The notes under the pieces were generated by a model. It did not search any database. It had not been told where the DNA came from and saw nothing but the letters and a program-made list of their open reading frames with translations. A program made the translations under genes and the position numbers. A stretch of DNA of 60,674 nt from Phaeodactylibacter xiamenensis (lineage in GTDB: Bacteria; Bacteroidota; Bacteroidia; Chitinophagales; Saprospiraceae): contig NZ_JPOS01000078.1 of NCBI RefSeq assembly GCF_000759025.1, positions 1-60,674 of the forward strand. The letters are read 5' to 3'. Below, one piece after another: positions 26,894-36,943 of this stretch. Numbering within the stretch: position 1 is the first letter of the stretch; each line of letters opens with the position of its first letter.

Positions 26894-26931
26894 AAAGGTG
26901 GCATGCCCGAAAATTCGGGTGTGCCGCCTTT
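26894..26931 (+). terminator. Terminator or attenuator after the PhoX gene
   Basis: AAAGGTGGCATGCCCGA pairs with TCGGGTGTGCCGCCTTT, a long stem. The following T run is weak (GCAGGTTTT), so partial readthrough into the peroxidase gene at 26976 is plausible. Confidence 0.65.
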
Positions 26932-26975
26932 GCAGGTTTTGCATTAGTACCACAACACACCAACCATTTCAGACC

Positions 26976-28940
26976 ATGAAAGCGACACTTACCGGCTTGC
27001 TCTACCTTACGCTTTTGCTAATGGCCACCCACTTCATCAGTTTCGTGCCCCCAAAGGCATACACTGCTGCTGAGGCACTGCGCAATGTACGTGCTGAATT
27101 TCAAACCGCTCTTACCAAACTAGACGAGACCGCGGCGGCGTATGAGGCCACTGCAAATGCCTTCGTGCGGGGGGAAGCCAACGCTGAAGCGCTTCAAAAA
27201 GTACATTCCCAGACCCGGCTTGCCTACAAGTCTCTTGAGTTTTTACTGGAATACAATGACCGGGAAGCCGTCAAAAAGTACCTCAATGGCCCGCCGCTGC
27301 TAAGTGTGGAGCCGAAGGTGCCGGAAGTCCGCATTATTGAACCGGTAGGGCTGCAGGTGCTGGACGAACTGGTCTACGGCGAAAATTCGCAAGCGGAGCA
27401 GGAAGAAATCCTGCGCCTGGTCCGCCAGTTCAATAAGGATTTTAGCAAAGTGAAAGCCTTTCAGGAAGGCGTAGTGCTGCAACACCGCTTTGTTTTTGAA
27501 GCTTTTCGATATCAGTTGGTCCGCATCTTTACGCTGGGGCTGACCGGATTTGACACGCCGGGCTCAGGGGCAGCCCTGCCGGAAGCCAGGCAGTCTCTGG
27601 AGGGCGCAGCAAAGGCGCTGATGGCTTATTTCCCACTTTTAGAGCAGATTGATGCTCAACTGGCCACCGACTGCCGCCTGGAGCTCGGATCGGCTATCGC
27701 AGCCTTGTCTCAGCCTGCTGATTTCAATGACTTCCGCCGGCTACAATTTCTAAAAAAACACCTAAACCCACTGCTAAAGCTTTCCCTGGAAGCACAAAAA
27801 AACCTGGAGGTAGAACTCCTCAGCGAAATTACCGATCGTCCGCAGGCCTGGAATTACGAAGCAGATAACCTGTTCTCGGATGAATTTCTAAACCCCAGTT
27901 ATTACACTAATCTAAGTGATGCGGCTCAAAGTGAGGAACGCATAGCCCTTGGGCGGATGCTGTTCTACGACCCCATCCTTTCTGCGAATAACGAGCGTTC
28001 CTGTGCCTCCTGCCATCATCCGGACAAAGCCTTTACCGATGGGCTGCCCCGGAGCATGGCCCTCAATGGCGAAGGCAGCATTCAGCGCAATGCCCCAACT
28101 TTGATCAACAGCGTCTACGCCGAACATTATTTCTACGATCTGCGGGAGCCGAACCTGGAACGTCAGGTCAAGCATGTGGTGCGGGACGAAAAGGAATTCA
28201 ATACTGACTTTCTGGAAATTGTAGACAAGCTTAAGCAAAGCGCAGCCTATCGCTCGCTTTTTGCCAGTGCCTACCCGGAGCATCCGCAGTATCAGATTTC
28301 AAAGTGGTCGATCTCCAATGCTCTGGCTTGTTATGTTGCCGATTTGCGGTCCTTCAATAGCCCCTTTGATCAGTATGTTCGGGGGGAGCGGGAAGCCGTT
28401 GCAGCGGAAGTAGAGCGTGGGTTTGATCTTTTCATGGGCAAAGCCAACTGTGGCACCTGCCATTTTGCACCAACATTCAACGGGACCGTGCCTCCGTACT
28501 TTCAGGAAAGCGAGTCGGAAGTACTGGGGGTGCCTGCCGCTGCGCAAGGACCAGACAGCCTTGCTTTAGATCCCGACCCTGGACGTTTTGCCAGCTACAA
28601 GCCCATTGACCAAACGCCTTTTTACCTGCATTCCTTCAAAACGGTGACCGTACGCAATGCCGCACTGACTGCGCCCTACATGCATAACGGGATTTACCAA
28701 AGCCTGGAGGAAGTCGTGGAGTTTTACAACAAAGGAGGCGGGGCAGGCATGGGCATAGAAGTCCCCTATCAAACCCTGCCGGATACGCCACTAGAACTAT
28801 CCGAGCAGGAAGTGAAGGACCTGGTTGCCTTTATGGAGGCGCTGACCGATACTACCGGGATGACGGCTGTCCCGGCGCAGCTGCCCGCTTTTGAAACCCA
28901 TCCTGACTGGAACAAAAGACGGGTAGGAGGCACCTATTGA
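26976..28940 (+). CDS. Imelysin-like domain fused to a di-haem cytochrome c peroxidase (MauG/CcpA type)
   Basis: 654 codons from the ATG at 26976, which starts a signal peptide (MKATLTGLLYLTLLLMATHF); an earlier in-frame start at 26898 adds an unlikely leader. Residues about 25-300 are helical and contain AYKSLEFLLEYND and IIEPVGLQVLDEL, resembling imelysin-like domains. The C-terminal half is a bacterial di-haem peroxidase with haem sites CASCHH and CGTCHF and the APYMHNGIY motif. It is longer than usual CcpA proteins because of the N-terminal domain. It would sit in the periplasm and use peroxide or oxidise a partner protein. It follows the PhoX gene by 111 bp. Confidence 0.87.
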   Translation: MKATLTGLLYLTLLLMATHFISFVPPKAYTAAEALRNVRAEFQTALTKLDETAAAYEATANAFVRGEANAEALQKVHSQTRLAYKSLEFLLEYNDREAVKKYLNGPPLLSVEPKVPEVRIIEPVGLQVLDELVYGENSQAEQEEILRLVRQFNKDFSKVKAFQEGVVLQHRFVFEAFRYQLVRIFTLGLTGFDTPGSGAALPEARQSLEGAAKALMAYFPLLEQIDAQLATDCRLELGSAIAALSQPADFNDFRRLQFLKKHLNPLLKLSLEAQKNLEVELLSEITDRPQAWNYEADNLFSDEFLNPSYYTNLSDAAQSEERIALGRMLFYDPILSANNERSCASCHHPDKAFTDGLPRSMALNGEGSIQRNAPTLINSVYAEHYFYDLREPNLERQVKHVVRDEKEFNTDFLEIVDKLKQSAAYRSLFASAYPEHPQYQISKWSISNALACYVADLRSFNSPFDQYVRGEREAVAAEVERGFDLFMGKANCGTCHFAPTFNGTVPPYFQESESEVLGVPAAAQGPDSLALDPDPGRFASYKPIDQTPFYLHSFKTVTVRNAALTAPYMHNGIYQSLEEVVEFYNKGGGAGMGIEVPYQTLPDTPLELSEQEVKDLVAFMEALTDTTGMTAVPAQLPAFETHPDWNKRRVGGTY

Positions 28941-30709: not shown

Positions 30710-31620
30710 CGGTACAGCCGGTCTGTTTTTTGGTCTTTCATGGGGCCGCGGTGCAATAACAGCCGGTTGCGGAAACGCAGTGGTTCCTGCTGTGATAATT
30801 TAATGGCTGTGGCACCGGGAAAAGCGGGATTCTGCATGCTGTTCTGCTTGCGCAATATCCAACCCTGAAACTGGGGCAGTTCCTCAGGCTCGCACATCAT
30901 CACTACCGAAGTCTGCTCCGGCAGCAGCGCATTGAAGTTGCCGCTTGCCCGTACCCATCCCCCGGCTTGTACTGGGGTGGTTTGTGGCGTTACGGTTCCG
31001 TTGCCGTTGGAGAAAGTGAGTGGGTTGGTGGTGTTAAGCCGCACGGAAAACCCTCCGTAGCCCTTCTTATCCTCCGAGCCGCCGATGCGGATGTCGGGTG
31101 CCATTGCGGTAAGCTGAATATCAAAGTCCAGCAGGCGCACATCCTGGCCCTTTTGCCGGATATATATGCGGACATCCTCCCGAACCAGCGTGTCCGGTAC
31201 ACCCTGTGGTGCATCCGGCCCTGCCATCCAGTAAACGATAGCCTCTATGCTTGCCCGTTTGCGGCGGGCCTGGGTTTCCAGTACTTTGACTTCCCAGCGG
31301 ATGCCCTCGCACAGCCAGGGGTCGCCCACCCGTACCTCACCTGCAAAGAGCTGATGCCAGGTCCAGAAAACACCCCGGTGGTGGCGATGGTCTTCCGGGA
31401 AGTCCTGGGTAAGCAGCGCACCGCCCAATCCATAAACCGGGTGGAGGTAATTGGAGCGCGGATAGGCATCGGCGTATGCCAGTGTGCCGGTCTGATAGGC
31501 AAAGCAGGGCTGTTCACCATAGTAGAGGGTCAGCGCATCCAGGTCCCGCCGGAATTCGAAGGGCTGAGCGTTTAGGTAGCCAGTGAAAGTAAGCCCTATC
31601 ACCAAGATCGGGAGTCTCAT
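30688..31620 (-). CDS. PmoA-like (DUF6807) exported protein
   Basis: 310 codons with a short signal peptide (1-18, GYLNAQ). The family hallmark is YLHPVYGLGG followed by LTQDFPEDHRHHRGVFWTW (about 58-88). The protein is an all-beta fold similar to galactose-mutarotase-like domains. In Bacteroidota it is often found near sugar catabolism genes; its reaction is not established to my knowledge. It lies on the opposite strand to the glycosyltransferase, and its last 22 bp are shared with that gene's end. Confidence 0.85.
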   Translation of the reverse strand: MRLPILVIGLTFTGYLNAQPFEFRRDLDALTLYYGEQPCFAYQTGTLAYADAYPRSNYLHPVYGLGGALLTQDFPEDHRHHRGVFWTWHQLFAGEVRVGDPWLCEGIRWEVKVLETQARRKRASIEAIVYWMAGPDAPQGVPDTLVREDVRIYIRQKGQDVRLLDFDIQLTAMAPDIRIGGSEDKKGYGGFSVRLNTTNPLTFSNGNGTVTPQTTPVQAGGWVRASGNFNALLPEQTSVVMMCEPEELPQFQGWILRKQNSMQNPAFPGATAIKLSQQEPLRFRNRLLLHRGPMKDQKTDRLYRQFLRKR

Positions 31621-32085
31621 AAATGAAGTTTTAAAGGAAGTTAATCAATGTACGGGTTAAGTAAGCTGTTGTAACCTGTTTCTGGTCATTTCCTGTCTTT
31701 TTCTTCAGAAAGGCTACCATCTCACCAAAGCGTTTAACGCTGAAATTCGTTTCTTAGACCAGCCAGGTAGGCTCGAATCAAAATTAAAAGGCAAATATCC
31801 AAATGTACACTAAGGCGAAGCCCCCCAAGACACATTTCTAATCAGTGACGCGCCGCATAAGTGCTTCCAAAGGCCCTCTTTTGTACTTCTTTCGCCACCT
31901 GTGGGAGAACCATACGAGCAGTACACTAAAGGCCAGAGCCAGAGCTAAAGCTAAAGGTATTTAATTTTTGTTAAGCCTTGGCTATCCCGGATTTTTGAGC
32001 CTCACTCCGGCAAGGCTGCCGCTTCGCCCGCCGTCCGACAAAACTTTTCTTGCAAAGCATTGCAAAATCCCCTTATCTTTGCAGC
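31621..32085. other. Intergenic region, 465 bp
   Basis: Spacer between divergent genes. It has a hexamer-doubling tract (CCAGAG CCAGAG CTAAAG CTAAAG, near 31932-31956), the string GTACACTAAGG or GTACACTAAAGG near 31804 and 31922, and the promoter of the next operon at 32050-32081. No coding frame was supported. Confidence 0.5.
32050..32081 (+). promoter_or_regulatory. Bacteroidota-type promoter of the MbnP/MbnH operon
   Basis: TTG at 32050-32052, a 21-bp spacer and TATCTTTG at 32074-32081. The box ends 4 bp before the ATG at 32086, so the transcript would be nearly leaderless. Confidence 0.65.
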
Positions 32086-32463
32086 ATGAAGCAACTGTGG
32101 GCTATACCCTTACTACTGTTAGTGCTGTCGCAAGTGGCGTTTCTGCCGGCTGTGACTGCCTGGCTGTCGTATAACCAAGCCTACATTGCCAGCGAGCTCT
32201 GCGAAAACCGCTTTGAGCCCGAGCTCATGTGCAGCGGGCGCTGCTATGTGCAAGAGGTTACAAGTGCGGCAATAGGCCATGAGCAGGAGGGCGAACAAGC
32301 GCCAGTCGTTGAGGATCAGCGTACCGGTTTGTCGCCTTTTTTACCGGCTCACTACGTCCTTTCTGTGGAGCGCGATCTCTATTCCTTTAACCCCCTGCCG
32401 CCGGCAACAGCGCTGCGGCCACAACTGCTCTCCTCCGGGGTCTTCCATCCTCCACGGGCCTAG
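32086..32463 (+). CDS. Small exported protein with CEN-x(n)-CxGxCY motif
   Basis: 125 codons from the ATG at 32086, which fits the promoter and gives an N-terminal hydrophobic segment (AIPLLLLVLSQVAFLPAVTAW). Just after it comes a conserved Cys cluster, with Cys in SELCENRFEPELMCSGRCYV. I recall proteins of this kind (N-x2-YI-x(3)-LCENK-x-P-x(3)-C-x-GKCYL) as widespread in Bacteroidota beside metal transport and TonB receptor genes; they have no assigned function. Three closely spaced Cys suggest metal binding or a disulfide. It heads the copper-type operon that runs to 35748. Confidence 0.7.
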   Translation: MKQLWAIPLLLLVLSQVAFLPAVTAWLSYNQAYIASELCENRFEPELMCSGRCYVQEVTSAAIGHEQEGEQAPVVEDQRTGLSPFLPAHYVLSVERDLYSFNPLPPATALRPQLLSSGVFHPPRA

Positions 32464-32478
32464 TGCCCATACGCTCTA

Positions 32479-32538
32479 AGAGGCATTTTCGCCTCCTCAT
32501 GTACGCTCCCAACGGGTAGGCCGGTCTGTACATGACCG
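32479..32538 (+). promoter_or_regulatory. Paired hairpins in the leader between operon genes 1 and 2
   Basis: Two short stem-loops lie in the 147-bp gap: GAGGC/GCCTC at 32480-32495 and CGGTC/GACCG at 32522-32538 around TGTACAT. They could act in transcript processing or attenuation. No known riboswitch class was recognised. Confidence 0.35.
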
Positions 32539-32610
32539 ACCGTGGTGATGTTAGCAGATGTGTGCCTCCCGTAATGGCGTATGCTTTTTGTTTTTTAAAT
32601 ACAAATATTC

Positions 32611-33519
32611 ATGTTATTCCGATCTTTTTGGATTGGGGTGCTGCTGTTGCTTGCTTCGCCTGCCCTGGCCTGCGATGCCTGTGGCTGTAGCATGTCCCCT
32701 TCCTATGCCGCTTTGATGCCGAGCCTCGGTGGGCACTTTGTGGGGTTTTGGTGGCAGCATCAGCACTACCGGACCTTTGCGGATCCGGCTTTTGATGCCG
32801 GTGCGCGCCCGCAGGACGAATACTTCAATACCCTGGAGATTCGGGGCCGGTGGGAAATTCATCCCCGCTTGCAGGCCACGATAATGCTCCCCTATGCCTA
32901 CCATCTGCGGCAGGATGCCAACGGGCCGCGAACAGTCAGCGGGCTGGGCGATGTGACCGGGCTGCTCAGCTATACTTTTTTTGACAATAGCGATAGCCTG
33001 CAACAGAAAGTCAGACACCGGGTCGTGGCGGGCATAGGTGGTAAAGCGCCAACGGGAGCGTTTCAGCAACCTGCCGCCAACGAGGTGGTGAACCCTAACT
33101 TTCAGGTTGGGACGGGCAGTTGGGACGCTTTGTTCAACCTCAATTACACTGCACGGAGCGGACGGTCCGGGCTATTGCTCGACGCCACCTACCGCCTCAA
33201 TGGGGCCGGTGAGAATGGCTATCAGTTTGGTAACCGCTTTGCCGGGCTGTTGAGCCTTTTCCGGGTGGAGCAGATTGGTGGCGTCAGCGTGATGCCTAAC
33301 CTGGGGCTCTACTATGAACAGGCCGACTGGGACATTGAGAATGGCTACTACCGCACTTATACCGGTGGGGAAGCCTGGCTGGTCAATGCCGGCGCCGAGG
33401 TGTTCTGGCAGCGCTACAACCTGGGGGTGACTTACAGCCTGCCTCTGCAACAGGATTGGAATACAGGATTGGTGGAGGCCCGCTCAAGGGTGGCGCTCCA
33501 CCTCAATTACTTTTTTTGA
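32611..33519 (+). CDS. Cys-rich outer-membrane-like beta-barrel protein of the MbnP operon
   Basis: 302 codons with a signal peptide (1-20, SPALA). The mature protein would begin with CDACGCSMSPS, a tight cluster of three Cys and a Met that could bind copper. The rest has alternating aromatic/hydrophobic strands (for example LQATIMLPYAYHLR, GLGDVTGLLSYTFF) and ends in LHLNYFF, an outer-membrane-barrel-like C-terminus. It is probably a transporter-like or porin-like outer membrane protein. It lies 4 bp before the DUF4625 gene, so they are probably cotranscribed. A specific transport function is inference from context. Confidence 0.75.
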   Translation: MLFRSFWIGVLLLLASPALACDACGCSMSPSYAALMPSLGGHFVGFWWQHQHYRTFADPAFDAGARPQDEYFNTLEIRGRWEIHPRLQATIMLPYAYHLRQDANGPRTVSGLGDVTGLLSYTFFDNSDSLQQKVRHRVVAGIGGKAPTGAFQQPAANEVVNPNFQVGTGSWDALFNLNYTARSGRSGLLLDATYRLNGAGENGYQFGNRFAGLLSLFRVEQIGGVSVMPNLGLYYEQADWDIENGYYRTYTGGEAWLVNAGAEVFWQRYNLGVTYSLPLQQDWNTGLVEARSRVALHLNYFF

Positions 33520-33523
33520 TCAA

Positions 33524-33901
33524 ATGCGAAAACTAACCTGGCTTCCGGTTTTTATGATCGCCTTTATAGGCTGTCAGAAGGAAGCAATTATTGATACGGT
33601 GAAGCCGGACATTCAGATTCTGGCACCCACAGCAGGCGCCGTTTTGTCGGTGGGAGATGTGATGCCCGTAGAGGTGGACTTCTCTGAAAACCTGGGGCTG
33701 CATACCTACTTCATTTGGCTTGTTGCCGAAGACGGAATGCCGACTCTGGTGGAAAAGCAGCACCTGCACGCGCTGCGCCACGAGGTACGGCTGGAATTTC
33801 CGCTCAATGGCCTGGAGCCCGGCACTTACGAGCTTCAGGTAACAGCTGATGATCATGACCAGAATACGACAAATGCTGTGGTTTTGGTTCATCTGCAATA
33901 G
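33524..33901 (+). CDS. DUF4625 lipoprotein
   Basis: 125 codons with a lipoprotein signal (Cys17 in FIGCQK). The domain is a small Ig-like beta-sandwich: KPDIQILAPTAGAVLSVGD, then FSENLGLHTYFIWL, EKQHLHALRH and a closing GTYELQVTADDHDQNT. His residues cluster in the middle and at the end, which would suit metal binding, but this is inference. It sits between the barrel protein and the MbnP lipoprotein in a tight plus-strand series. Confidence 0.82.
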   Translation: MRKLTWLPVFMIAFIGCQKEAIIDTVKPDIQILAPTAGAVLSVGDVMPVEVDFSENLGLHTYFIWLVAEDGMPTLVEKQHLHALRHEVRLEFPLNGLEPGTYELQVTADDHDQNTTNAVVLVHLQ

Positions 33902-33943
33902 CACTTAAAACAACTTCTAATAACTTTAAATAAAAATTGACCA

Positions 33944-34693
33944 ATGACAAAATTCAAATTTTCCACCCTTGCGCTGCTTGCGGTCTTCGCGCTTGCGTTT
34001 TCAGCTTGCGACAATGATGATGAAACACCTGGTATTCAGGAAGGCACCGTGAATATGATGTTTGAGTACACTGTAGATGGTGCTGCTTTTGATACAACGC
34101 AGGTGTACGATATTAATGGGACTTCCGTACAGTTCACTATTGCTAACTTCTATGTGGGCGGTATTGAGCTGATGCCGGAAGAAGGCGATGCAATTCCCGT
34201 AGAAGGCAAGTACCTGCTGGTGACGCCGGAAGCAGGCATGCAGGAAGTGACCACTGTCCCTGCCGGGCATTACCACATGGTGAACTTCTTTGTGGGCGTA
34301 GACCCTGCCATCAACAGTCAGTCTGAAGACGACTTCACTTCCCGCGACGCTGAGGATCCGCTCGCTATTCAGTTCCCGGCTATGCACTGGAACTGGAACT
34401 CCGGCTACCGCTTCCTGCGTATTGACGGCAAAGTAGATACAGATGGTGATGGTACGATGGATGAAACTATGGCTTTCCATCTGGGTACAAACAATATGTT
34501 GCAGAATGTGAGCCTCACTGCCCACAAAGACGTGGAAAAGGGCAGCAACATGCTCCACATGGAATTTGACCTGGCGAAACTGTTTGAAGGTGTTGACCTT
34601 TCTACTGATTTCTCTACCCACACCATGAATAATCCTGAACTGGCTGCGGCTGTGCGGGATAACATCCCGGCTGCGATCAGTATGATGCACTAA
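33944..34693 (+). CDS. mbnP: MbnP-family copper-binding lipoprotein
   Basis: 249 codons with a lipoprotein signal (Cys22 in AFSACDN). The body matches the MbnP family: VNMMFEYTVDGAAFD near the start, VQFTIANFYVGGIEL (about 62-76), and the hallmark FPAMHWNWNSGYRFLRIDG with Trp149 and Trp151, followed by a long strand DKVVKG-like end. In studied MbnP proteins a Trp is oxidised to kynurenine by the partner di-haem enzyme MbnH, which creates a copper site. A candidate partner gene follows at 34741. It is thus predicted to be a surface or periplasmic copper lipoprotein. Which Trp is modified here is unknown. Confidence 0.85.
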   Translation: MTKFKFSTLALLAVFALAFSACDNDDETPGIQEGTVNMMFEYTVDGAAFDTTQVYDINGTSVQFTIANFYVGGIELMPEEGDAIPVEGKYLLVTPEAGMQEVTTVPAGHYHMVNFFVGVDPAINSQSEDDFTSRDAEDPLAIQFPAMHWNWNSGYRFLRIDGKVDTDGDGTMDETMAFHLGTNNMLQNVSLTAHKDVEKGSNMLHMEFDLAKLFEGVDLSTDFSTHTMNNPELAAAVRDNIPAAISMMH

Positions 34694-34699
34694 AACTGA

Positions 34700-34735
34700 A
34701 GGGTTGCCTGCGAAGAGCGGGCAACCCTAAATTTT
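34700..34735 (+). terminator. Terminator/attenuator between mbnP and its di-haem partner
   Basis: AGGGTTGCC (34700-34708) pairs perfectly with GGCAACCCT (34720-34728) and is followed by AAATTTTT. It ends just before the ATG at 34741. Partial termination here would keep the enzyme scarcer than its substrate lipoprotein. Confidence 0.75.
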
Positions 34736-34740
34736 TGATT

Positions 34741-35748
34741 ATGCGGTATTGCCCATTTCTTTTGTTGCTCTTGTTTTTTGCTTCCTGCGAAAAGGAGCCG
34801 GTCTCTCCGGTCGACACCACGCCTTACGTTTTGGAATTGCCGCCGCACTTCCCTTATCCGGATATCCCGGAAGATAATGAGCTGACCGAGGCGCGTGTAG
34901 CACTGGGGAAAATGCTGTTTTTTGAGCCTGCCATGTCGGTAGATTCGAGTATTACCTGTGGTGCCTGTCATAAGCAATCGCTTGCCTTTGCCGATGACCT
35001 GCCCATCAGTCCCGGTGTACGGGGGCGGCTGGGGTTTAGAAATTCACCTACATTGGTCAATCTGGCCTATCTCACCAAAGTCAACAAGGACGGGGGCGTG
35101 CCTAAGCTCGACATTCAGGCGTTAGTGCCCATCGAAGACCATGCCGAGATGGACCTGCCGATCCTTCATGCTGCTGAGCGACTCAATGCGGATCCGGAAT
35201 ATGTAGACGCTTTTCAACGGGCATATGGCGAGCTTGCTAGTCCATTTACCATCACCCGGGCACTTGGGGCTTTCCAGCGCACCCTCATTAGTGCCAACAG
35301 TACTTACGATCAGTACCTCATGGGCGAAGTTAGCCTCAATGCTGCCGCAGAGCGTGGCCGCCAACTGTTTTTCAGCGATGCAACCAACTGCAGCAGCTGC
35401 CACGGAGGCTTCAATTTTACGGAAAACGGCTTTTTCAACAACGGGCTGTACGAAACGTATGAAGACTGGGGCCGCCGCCGCGTCACGGGCCTGCCTGAAG
35501 ATGATGGCGTCTTTCGTGTGCCTACCTTACGAAACATAGCCCTTACCGCACCCTACATGCATGATGGCAGCCTGCCGGATTTGCAAGCCGTGCTGGAGCA
35601 CTACAACACCGGCGGCACAACCCACCCGAACAAAGACAACCGCATTCAGCCACTTCACCTCTCCACCGAACAAATGGCTGATCTGGAAGCCTTTCTGCAT
35701 ACTCTTACCGATACCTCCTTTTTAACAGACCAGCGATTTAAGCCCTAA
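34741..35748 (+). CDS. mbnH: MbnH-type di-haem protein (cytochrome c peroxidase/MauG family lipoprotein)
   Basis: 335 codons with a lipoprotein signal (Cys16 in FFASCEK). Haem c attachment sites are CGACH (73-77) and CSSCH (217-221), and the APYMHDGSL motif follows near 275. Length and layout are those of MauG/CcpA/MbnH proteins without extra domains. The neighbouring MbnP gene makes MbnH the likeliest assignment: it would use peroxide to oxidise a Trp of MbnP. A general peroxidase role is the alternative. It is the last gene of the operon and faces a repeat-rich spacer. Confidence 0.82.
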   Translation: MRYCPFLLLLLFFASCEKEPVSPVDTTPYVLELPPHFPYPDIPEDNELTEARVALGKMLFFEPAMSVDSSITCGACHKQSLAFADDLPISPGVRGRLGFRNSPTLVNLAYLTKVNKDGGVPKLDIQALVPIEDHAEMDLPILHAAERLNADPEYVDAFQRAYGELASPFTITRALGAFQRTLISANSTYDQYLMGEVSLNAAAERGRQLFFSDATNCSSCHGGFNFTENGFFNNGLYETYEDWGRRRVTGLPEDDGVFRVPTLRNIALTAPYMHDGSLPDLQAVLEHYNTGGTTHPNKDNRIQPLHLSTEQMADLEAFLHTLTDTSFLTDQRFKP

Positions 35749-35762
35749 TTGAAATCGCACAT

Positions 35763-36008
35763 TAGGGTACACTCCTTCCCGTCCGATGTAGTGAAAATGG
35801 CCTTCGGGCGTTAGGGTACGCTTTCCCATCGTGCCCTAACTTGTACTGAGGTTAGGCAGACTTTCCCAGTATGCCCTAACTTTAACGAATAGGAATCATA
35901 CTTTAGAGTATACCCTTCTCTGTCCGCTGTAGCGAAGCGAAACTGGGCCATCGTGCCCTAACTTGTACTGAGGTTAGGGCAGACTTTTCCAGTATGCCCT
36001 AACTTAAA
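35763..36008. repeat. Intergenic palindromic repeats built on GTTAGGG/CCCTAAC
   Basis: Seven or more GTTAGGG or CCCTAAC words occur in both orientations. A block of about 59 bp (CCATCGTGCCCTAACTTGTA onward) occurs twice, at about 35826-35884 and 35948-36008. In the second copy GCCCTAAC and GTTAGGGC can form a perfect 8-bp stem. It lies between convergent genes and runs into the last codons of the D-amino-acid oxidase gene. It may be a REP-like element or a complex terminator. Confidence 0.75.
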
Positions 36009-36943
36009 CCACGAATAATCTTCAAAATTTCCCCTGCGCAGCCCCAGGACACGGTAAAGCCCGCACCACCGTGCCCGTAATTATGGAAAATAGGCTGCCC
36101 AGGCTCCTGCTCACAGCGGATGGCCGGCCGCTTGGGGCGGAGTCCTGCGGCAGCATTGATCAACTTAGGTTTGGTAAGGGAAGGCTGCAATTGAGCGCAG
36201 CGCCGGAGGATAATTTGAGTGTCTTCCGGAGAAGTCGTGTTGTTGTAATCATGTTCGTAGTCGGTACCTCCCAGAATGGTATCCTTACCGCGTTGGATCA
36301 CATAGGCCAGCTTGCCTTTGTCCATGGAGTCTACCATAGACCGGGTGCCAGGTACATTTTCCACTTTGACCACTTGCCCGCGAATGGGGTAGACCGATTC
36401 ATCCTGACATAATTCCCGTGCCCCAAGCCCGGCACAGTTGACGAGGAGGTCCGCTTCCCTGGCCAGGTCAGTCAGGTGATGTACGGTTGCTTGTTGGAAT
36501 AATCCACCCGCTTTCATAAAACGGCTTTGAAGGTCGGGTAGGTAGACGGGTGTTTCTGCGAGGGGGACTTTGGCAAGGTAGCCCATTTCATACCCCTGCG
36601 GCAGTTCTTCAGATTTTGCCAGGCGTACGGCACCTTCCGGCAGTTCCTCCCGCCAGCTGTTATCGAGCCCCGGGCGGGTGAGGACCAGGAAATCGGTCAT
36701 GCTTACCCCGGTGGCTGGTGTTTGCGCCAGCTGCTCAAAAACCCGGTAGGACTCGGCACTCCAGCGATTGGCAGCATGGACTGGCGCTACGGCATAGGGG
36801 AACCAAATGGCGGCGGCTACAGCGGAGGTCGTGGCACCGGGCAGGTCTTGAGTGTAAATGGTGACTGCGTAACCCGCTTCCTGCAAGGTTACAGCAGTGG
36901 TCAGGCCCGAAACGCCCGCTCCGATAACGATGACCCGCTTCAT
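35999..36943 (-). CDS. D-amino-acid oxidase family flavoprotein
   Basis: 314 codons from the ATG at 36943; an upstream in-frame start at 37072 adds a poor leader. An FAD-binding Rossmann motif (VIVIGAGVSGLTTA) opens the protein, and the signature HNYGHGGAGFTVSWGCA lies near the C-terminus, as in D-amino-acid and D-aspartate oxidases. It would oxidise D-amino acids to keto acids, ammonia and peroxide in the cytoplasm. The start overlaps the stop of the DinB-like gene (ATGA), so they are coupled. The stop codon lies inside the palindromic repeat region, which may have rewritten the last residues. Confidence 0.87.
   Translation of the reverse strand: MKRVIVIGAGVSGLTTAVTLQEAGYAVTIYTQDLPGATTSAVAAAIWFPYAVAPVHAANRWSAESYRVFEQLAQTPATGVSMTDFLVLTRPGLDNSWREELPEGAVRLAKSEELPQGYEMGYLAKVPLAETPVYLPDLQSRFMKAGGLFQQATVHHLTDLAREADLLVNCAGLGARELCQDESVYPIRGQVVKVENVPGTRSMVDSMDKGKLAYVIQRGKDTILGGTDYEHDYNNTTSPEDTQIILRRCAQLQPSLTKPKLINAAAGLRPKRPAIRCEQEPGQPIFHNYGHGGAGFTVSWGCAGEILKIIRGLS

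Follow-up and report, generated by a model that had tools for sequence, protein, structure and literature searches.

A Putative Copper-Responsive Arrest Leader at the Head of an MbnP/MbnH Gene Cassette in Phaeodactylibacter xiamenensis and Other Bacteroidota

The 60,674-nucleotide (nt) stretch of Phaeodactylibacter xiamenensis DNA analyzed here (contig NZ_JPOS01000078.1; hereafter, the window) carries five consecutive plus-strand open reading frames (ORFs), g1 to g5, between positions 32086 and 35748. An initial annotation had placed all five in a single copper pathway at the outer membrane. Our ORF calls confirm the genes at that place, and four of them, namely g1 (G1), g2 (G2), g4 (MbnP), and g5 (MbnH), constitute a recurrent Bacteroidota cassette. 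We consider it probable, judging from the sequence, that the locus is a copper-handling operon, comprising a barrel, MbnP, and MbnH, and that its first gene encodes G1, a small leader protein whose translational arrest responds to copper. All window features described below between 32050 and 35748 lie on the plus strand.

G1 Combines a Cys Core with a Near-Terminal PP

G1 (32086..32463; 125 amino acids (aa)) contains CENRFEPELMCSGRCY and ends in VFHPPRA-stop, a feature absent from the initial annotation, which had taken the protein for a small Cys-motif partner in the pathway. The Cys motif is indeed present, but as to the role, a regulatory leader is preferred. The Cys core, CENRFEPELMCSGRC, is encoded at 32200..32244, and the FHPP codons of the C-terminus occupy 32443..32454. 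In an alignment of 28 G1 proteins, the sole invariant positions were C39, C49, G51, C53, P122, and P123. The shared plan begins with a hydrophobic N-terminus (a segment seen by eye), continues with a CxGxC core and a linker, and closes with (F/D)(H/R/K)PP shortly ahead of the stop codon.

G1 was found in 103 of the 247 Bacteroidota genomes and in 52 of the 122 genera sampled. The G1 set comprised 125 genes called in the window and 160 further loci (161 sequences), with 2 of 127 ORFs lost to overlap. In 119 of the 125, PP fell among the final 7 residues, one to five residues 5' of the stop, compared with 13 of 410 unlabelled genes of 100–180 aa from the same loci. The C-terminal motif was FHPP in 43 cases, DHPP in 20, and FRPP in 17, the others being scattered. 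Could the PP have been picked by the profile itself? This was not borne out: a profile built from the N-terminal half alone again returned 127 ORFs, of which 120 had PP among the final 7 residues, and again G1 in 103 of the 247 genomes.

The distance from the Cys core to PP was 67.4 ± 2.7 residues (range 61–73; 121 genes). It was 69.1 ± 1.0 residues for 79 genes in a further sample, the best 80 of 589 named loci, which are mostly Flavobacterium and were selected by the Cys core. The linker that holds this distance is only 13% identical on average between pairs of G1 proteins, whereas the Cys core is 46% and the C-terminus 50% identical.

Several irregular copies were seen in passing. The ORF at L073:9447-9749 (minus strand) lacks the PP end and looks like a broken or cut G1 copy; a G1 match with an internal TAG at G006:C21:170865-171227 may be the same gene. 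Furthermore, Flavobacterium-like G1 genes were seen in two metagenome bins (L246 and L252) that bear the titles Rhizobium sp. Q54 and Bifidobacterium breve, and these titles are probably wrong.

G1 Precedes Copper-Type Genes on the Same Strand

A gene of 100 aa or more follows 123 of the G1 genes and is co-directional with G1 in every case (123 of 123); the corresponding count for gene ends of these loci is 1359 of 1885. Co-direction was likewise complete in the best 80 of the 589 named loci. The gap to this gene was long, with a median of 120 nt compared with 50 nt in controls, and it measures 147 nt between G1 and G2 of the window. The first neighbors of the 123 G1 genes included 31 MbnP genes, 16 G2-type barrels, one G1, and one MbnH. 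The unlabelled remainder comprised 50 genes of at least 600 aa, 19 of 200–350 aa, and 5 others, and profile searches of these 74 yielded 47 TonB plug, 8 YtkA, and 3 SCO1 matches. SCO1- and PCuAC-like sequences were recognized by eye in loci L199 and L206.

Two more G1 genes are present in the genome of the window. One (L203, G000:C83:218500-230900) precedes a TonB receptor, and the other (L199, G000:C39:247100-259500) precedes a group with the SCO1-like sequence. A copper regulon is likely.

In two loci without G1, the slot directly before MbnP is occupied by a leader of RGPP type. In L103/L305, a DUF2946 match ending in IRGPPGLLA stands there with a 142 nt gap. In L084, the slot is taken, at a gap of 133 nt, by a Cys protein with the end RGPPAVA. 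A third, Cys-rich leader-like ORF (L089:9618-9995, minus strand), ending in WTPPKIG, lies 147 nt before MbnP. Among the 43 MbnP loci in which no G1 was called, 3 had an upstream ORF with Cys and PP, namely L084, L089, and the doubtful L107; the L103 leader came from a separate DUF2946 search and is outside this count. Most MbnP loci that lack G1 show no such leader. DUF2946 itself was found in 6 of the 247 genomes, among them that of L103/L305, and above the cut-off in 3.

Four of the Five Genes Form a Recurrent Cassette

A profile search found MbnP in 67 of the 247 genomes. We compared 81 sequences, the window and 80 regions around MbnP matches, where neighboring matches share one region and six weak or truncated MbnP places were left out of the regions fetched. 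A G1 relative was present in 39 of these, a G2 relative in 28, and an MbnH relative in 80. By gene calling, G1 was present in 36 and G2 in 28 of the 79 loci with a called MbnP. The G1 value of 36/79 is a lower bound and 39/81 is the fuller count, as the gene calls lost the G1 ORFs of L091 and L098 to an overlong overlapping MbnP ORF, and also lost the MbnP genes of L037 and L088.

All four genes were called together in 27 of the 79 loci. The order G1-MbnP-MbnH-G2 prevailed (24 loci) and recurred in 27 of the best 80 of the 589 named loci, whereas the order of the window, G1-G2-MbnP-MbnH, was seen in three loci only (the window, L041, and L065). On the other hand, a g3 relative was found in none of the other 80 MbnP sequences by a search of limited reach. 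DUF4625, the family to which g3 had been assigned, occurred in 10 of 41 genomes and never beside the MbnP cassette, in a search whose reach was such that it also missed the window's own g3. The co-occurrence proposed for five families is seen for four, with g3 found in the window alone; these searches lend g3 no support as a conserved partner, and it is probably incidental to the cassette.

In the same genome as the window, another locus (L093, G000:C83:97000-115000) carries a side-by-side pair of MbnP genes together with an MbnH-like gene, with no G1 called.

RNA-Level Features and the Proposed Switch

The initial annotation had placed one good promoter before g1. A sigma70 scan returned nothing 5' of g1, but a TTG (32050) followed by TATCTTTG (32074-32081) spans 32050..32081 and ends 4 nt 5' of the G1 ATG. 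We take this promoter-like element to be of the Bacteroidota type. Across the G1 set, TAnnTTTG was present within 12 nt of the chosen start in 29 of 125 genes compared with 35 of 1857 controls, a contrast tempered by the start rule, which differed between G1 and controls. As the element mostly lies 4–5 nt from the start, the G1 mRNA is suggested to have almost no leader.

A stretch of C > G runs over the 3' end of G1 in the window (32326..32544, by sliding C minus G) and is a possible Rho loading site. The best 78-nt value of C minus G at the 3' end was 0.192 over 123 G1 genes and 0.107 over 468 controls (p 7e-34). The excess was greatest in the final 30 nt of G1 (0.195 compared with −0.037) and faded within 60 nt past the stop. 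Rho is encoded in the P. xiamenensis genome. An Rfam scan of 31000-36500 gave zero matches up to E 1, so this region contains no known riboswitch.

How might such a leader work? G1 would be translated first, from an mRNA that begins at or beside its start codon. At low copper, the ribosome would stall at FHPP and shield the C-rich 3' end of G1, and transcription would continue into G2, MbnP, and MbnH. When copper is present, it would bind to the Cys core of the nascent G1 chain and relieve the stall; Rho would then load on the bared RNA and transcription would end before G2. Given the length of the path through the ribosome and the translocon, a spacing of ~67 residues would be just long enough for the Cys core to emerge from both, and it is therefore possible that copper is read in the periplasm. 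We infer the arrest, the copper binding, the sign of the regulation, the part of Rho, and the site of sensing from the features described above.

Several observations weigh against this reading. The loci are mutually related rather than phylogenetically independent. A same-strand gene lies less than 40 nt upstream of 20 of the 123 G1 genes, some of which may be internal to operons; the gene 5' of G1 shares its strand in 84 of 123, a proportion like that of ordinary genes. In a few loci, an opposite-strand ORF of 60–100 aa was called between G1 and its neighbor. The C > G excess mostly reflects amino-acid composition, as a synonymous recoding null yields 0.162 of the 0.181; we therefore rejected RNA-level selection as its sole cause. 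A small synonymous excess is left (mean z 0.53 for G1 and 0.09 for controls, p 8e-6), and the fraction of individual genes exceeding a z of 1.64 is not raised in G1 (9.8%) relative to controls (10.7%). None of 28 G1 members matched DUF2946 (PF11162), the family of the copper leader CruR, up to E 1, and G1 lacks its CXXC and RAPP; membership in that family was rejected. Finally, FHPP, in place of RAPP or RGPP, is a predicted arrest motif, and the arrest, copper binding, and expression response of G1 are likewise predictions.

Alternative Explanations

Could the switch behind a copper-responsive G1 leader be an RNA hairpin? Intrinsic attenuation, or the exposure of a ribosome start as in CutF, might then control the operon, possibly with copper as the activating signal. 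The window is suggestive in this respect. A large hairpin with a T-run lies between G1 and G2 (32501..32596) and may be an attenuator of the window copy; the gap folds with a z of −2.83, only 4 of 200 shuffles fold as well, and its structure is the fourth strongest of 101 G1 gaps. Furthermore, CutF uses a stem-loop and is activated by copper (PMC9973294). However, terminator-like structures were no commoner in G1 gaps (44 of 101) than in co-directional gaps in general (195 of 486), and strong ones were rarer (12 of 101 compared with 103 of 486), counts which also weigh against the arrest-leader reading. The gaps are also long. We therefore rejected intrinsic attenuation as a general mechanism and regard a hairpin switch as somewhat unlikely. 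A Rho-type switch is favored, if unproven.

G1 might also be a working copper chaperone, periplasmic or membrane-anchored, from which MbnP, the barrel, or a TonB receptor would receive copper, with the PP serving some other end. The hydrophobic N-terminal segment and the Cys core, present in all 28 aligned proteins, fit this, as do the copper-type neighbors, and CutF was initially taken for such a protein (PMC9426467). Nevertheless, a chaperone would account poorly for a linker of 13% identity and fixed length, for a PP placed so close to the C-terminal end in 119 of 125, for the co-directional gene that always follows (123 of 123), and for the RGPP-type leaders that take the same slot elsewhere, and we find this explanation improbable.

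A metal other than copper (zinc, iron, or nickel), or the redox state, as the signal sensed by G1 is quite improbable too. Cys-rich cores bind several metals and TonB receptors are not metal-specific, but the first neighbors of G1 include MbnP/MbnH, SCO1, and YtkA, and the sequences recognized by eye in L199 and L206 are of SCO1 and PCuAC type. A single outer-membrane copper pathway of all five partners, with G1 and g3 as structural or copper-binding members, is very unlikely: although G1, G2, MbnP, and MbnH do stand together in 27 of 79 loci, the search of limited reach found no g3 relative in the other 80 sequences and G1 precedes many operons without MbnP or G2.

The Arrest-Leader Reading Extended to the G1 Family

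Returning to G1 as an arrest leader, we give about even chances to a wider proposal. G1 proteins would be widespread copper-sensing arrest peptides of Bacteroidota with their own motif, (F/D)(H/R/K)PP, and no detectable kinship to CruR. The spacing would allow extracytoplasmic sensing, and the fast-diverging linker would be kept for its length and for a G-poor, C-rich RNA that feeds Rho. The operons controlled would be of MbnP/MbnH-barrel, TonB-receptor, and SCO1 type. If this is true, G1 would mark copper-responsive operons in Bacteroidota, including those for TonB receptors, MbnP/MbnH, and the Cys-motif barrel. It would also add a new arrest motif and a second nascent-chain solution to copper sensing. 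If MbnP/MbnH share with TonB receptors a switch that is off in copper, copper supply becomes a likelier function than detoxification. Among the papers listed in searches of the open-licence literature, none had a title or abstract opening describing a G1 leader family.

G2, MbnP, MbnH, and Other Features of the Locus

G2 (32611..33519) has a signal-like N-terminus followed by CDACGCSM. It is a predicted outer-membrane beta-barrel, in agreement with the barrel-like protein of the initial annotation. The AlphaFold2 model is a beta-barrel (predicted local distance difference test 82.2, predicted template modeling score 0.80) that leaves residues 6-38, with the Cys motif, unplaced. Neither G1 nor G2 of the window matched a Pfam family above its cut-off; 5 of 24 G2 relatives matched PF13557 (Phenol_MetA_deg) and the window G2 did not. 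All of the 24 aligned G2 relatives retain both Cys of CDxC. CxxCGC was present in 22 of the 28 G2 relatives of MbnP loci and in 26 of 42 in all, and several G2-type barrels directly behind G1 in loci without MbnP had no Cys motif.

The protein encoded by g3 (33524..33901) is His-rich with a lipobox by eye, as had been noted, and is DUF4625-like; its score against DUF4625 (PF15418) was 25.5 bits, under the cut-off of 27.

The assignment of g4 (33944..34693; lipobox by eye) to MbnP was borne out by a match to PF20243 (134 bits, cut-off 27) and by the motif MHWNWNSGYRF, whose WNW codons lie at 34388-34396. Against the MbnP equivalog TIGR04052, it scored 64.2 bits, under the cut-off of 140, and the closest solved structure was 7l6g (E 0.0097). 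WxW was conserved in 36 of 36 MbnPs of G1-bearing loci and in 70 of 85 overall.

g5 (34735..35748; lipobox by eye, with ATG 34741 as the likelier start) encodes an MbnH/MauG-like protein. Its di-heme character was upheld by PF03150 (CCP_MauG; 163.8 bits, cut-off met) and by the similarity to MbnH of PDB 6e1c (E 2.9e-49), whereas its score against TIGR04039 (MbnH), 266.4 bits, missed the cut-off of 362.85. The window MbnH has Lys at a position where 68 of the 93 rows in the alignment, among them 6e1c, have Trp. This Trp sits between the hemes, and the Lys leaves the kynurenine-making ability of the window MbnH in doubt.

A terminator-like hairpin of 12 pairs with a T-run (34700..34728) lies between the MbnP and MbnH genes of the window. 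Because hairpins stand in both the g4-g5 and the g1-g2 gaps, g1 to g5 may not share one unbroken transcript. In 80 MbnP-MbnH pairs, the median gap was 0 nt, and 18 gaps measured at least 25 nt. Besides the window, T-run hairpins were seen in 12 of these 18 (L081, L082, L083, L085, L041, L053, L057, L058, L060, L061, L062, and L066), and they could lower MbnH relative to MbnP.

Directly 3' of the operon, at 35755-36003, short repeats of GCCCTAACTT and TTAGGGCA-like sequence were seen by eye. Upstream, a second di-heme CCP/MauG-type gene (26898-28940) encodes a protein with a long N-terminal part without a Pfam match and a Tyr at the inter-heme Trp position.

Comparison with Known Systems

With the MbnP/MbnH of methanotrophs (PMC3621798, 7l6g, 6e1c), the window shares adjacent genes for MbnP and a di-heme MbnH as well as WxW; it differs from them in scoring below the TIGR04052 and TIGR04039 cut-offs and in the Lys at the MbnH Trp. 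Similarly, in CorA/CorB and MopE, a copper protein with a Trp-derived kynurenine is encoded beside a di-heme peroxidase gene and is copper-repressed (PMC3912023), although MbnP is described as lacking marked sequence similarity to either MopE or CorA (PMC3621798). For the G2 model, the nearest Foldseek matches were the COG4313 channel 4rl8 and FapF 5o67, which share the barrel fold (query template modeling scores of 0.66 and 0.62, respectively) at 15% identity; G2 adds the N-terminal Cys motif.

RAPP/RGPP arrest peptides have a C-terminal PP at which arrest occurs and are encoded upstream of the genes they regulate (PMC12992588, PMC10987492). Upstream ORFs (uORFs) of this kind precede copper genes in many lineages, with Bacteroidota named among the exceptions (PMC12992588), and Bacteroidota uORFs that end in proline upstream of sec genes have been reported (PMC12992588, PMC10987492). 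G1 differs in that it mostly ends in FHPP, DHPP, or FRPP. If our reading is true, copper-sensing leaders occur in the very phylum that PMC12992588 names as being without copper-related RAPP/RGPP leaders.

CutF is an exported nascent copper sensor with a C-terminal proline motif, encoded before a copper gene; copper-dependent stalling frees the downstream ribosome site through a stem-loop, so that copper activates (PMC9973294). On the other hand, G1 is proposed to act through Rho, with copper as the off signal. The window G1, which is 125 aa long, has PP among its final 15 residues, and has a same-strand neighbor within 1000 nt, passes three of the filters used for the CutF-like list of that paper, in which Bacteroidota make up 19% (40% when normalized), and this list may include G1 members.

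A further parallel is CruR, a uORF product of Bordetella pertussis, with CXXC, a spacing of 45 residues, and RAPP about three residues short of the C-terminus. Its gene has a long gap behind it and a C > G stretch that holds the rut site; copper relieves the arrest, and Rho halts transcription (PMC9426467). CruR homologues head copper operons with TonB receptors and also MbnPH-like genes (PMC9426467). G1 resembles CruR in being a small protein with an N-terminal hydrophobic (export-type) segment, a Cys motif, a fixed spacing, and a near-terminal PP, and in its context of copper-type operons and TonB receptors, its C > G stretch, and the long gap behind it, although the 20 of 123 G1 genes with a close same-strand gene upstream temper the likeness in head position. 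It differs in having CxGxC instead of CXXC, FHPP/DHPP/FRPP instead of RAPP, a spacing of ~67 instead of 45 residues, no profile match to DUF2946, and a far wider presence in the phylum (103 compared with 6 of the 247 Bacteroidota genomes).

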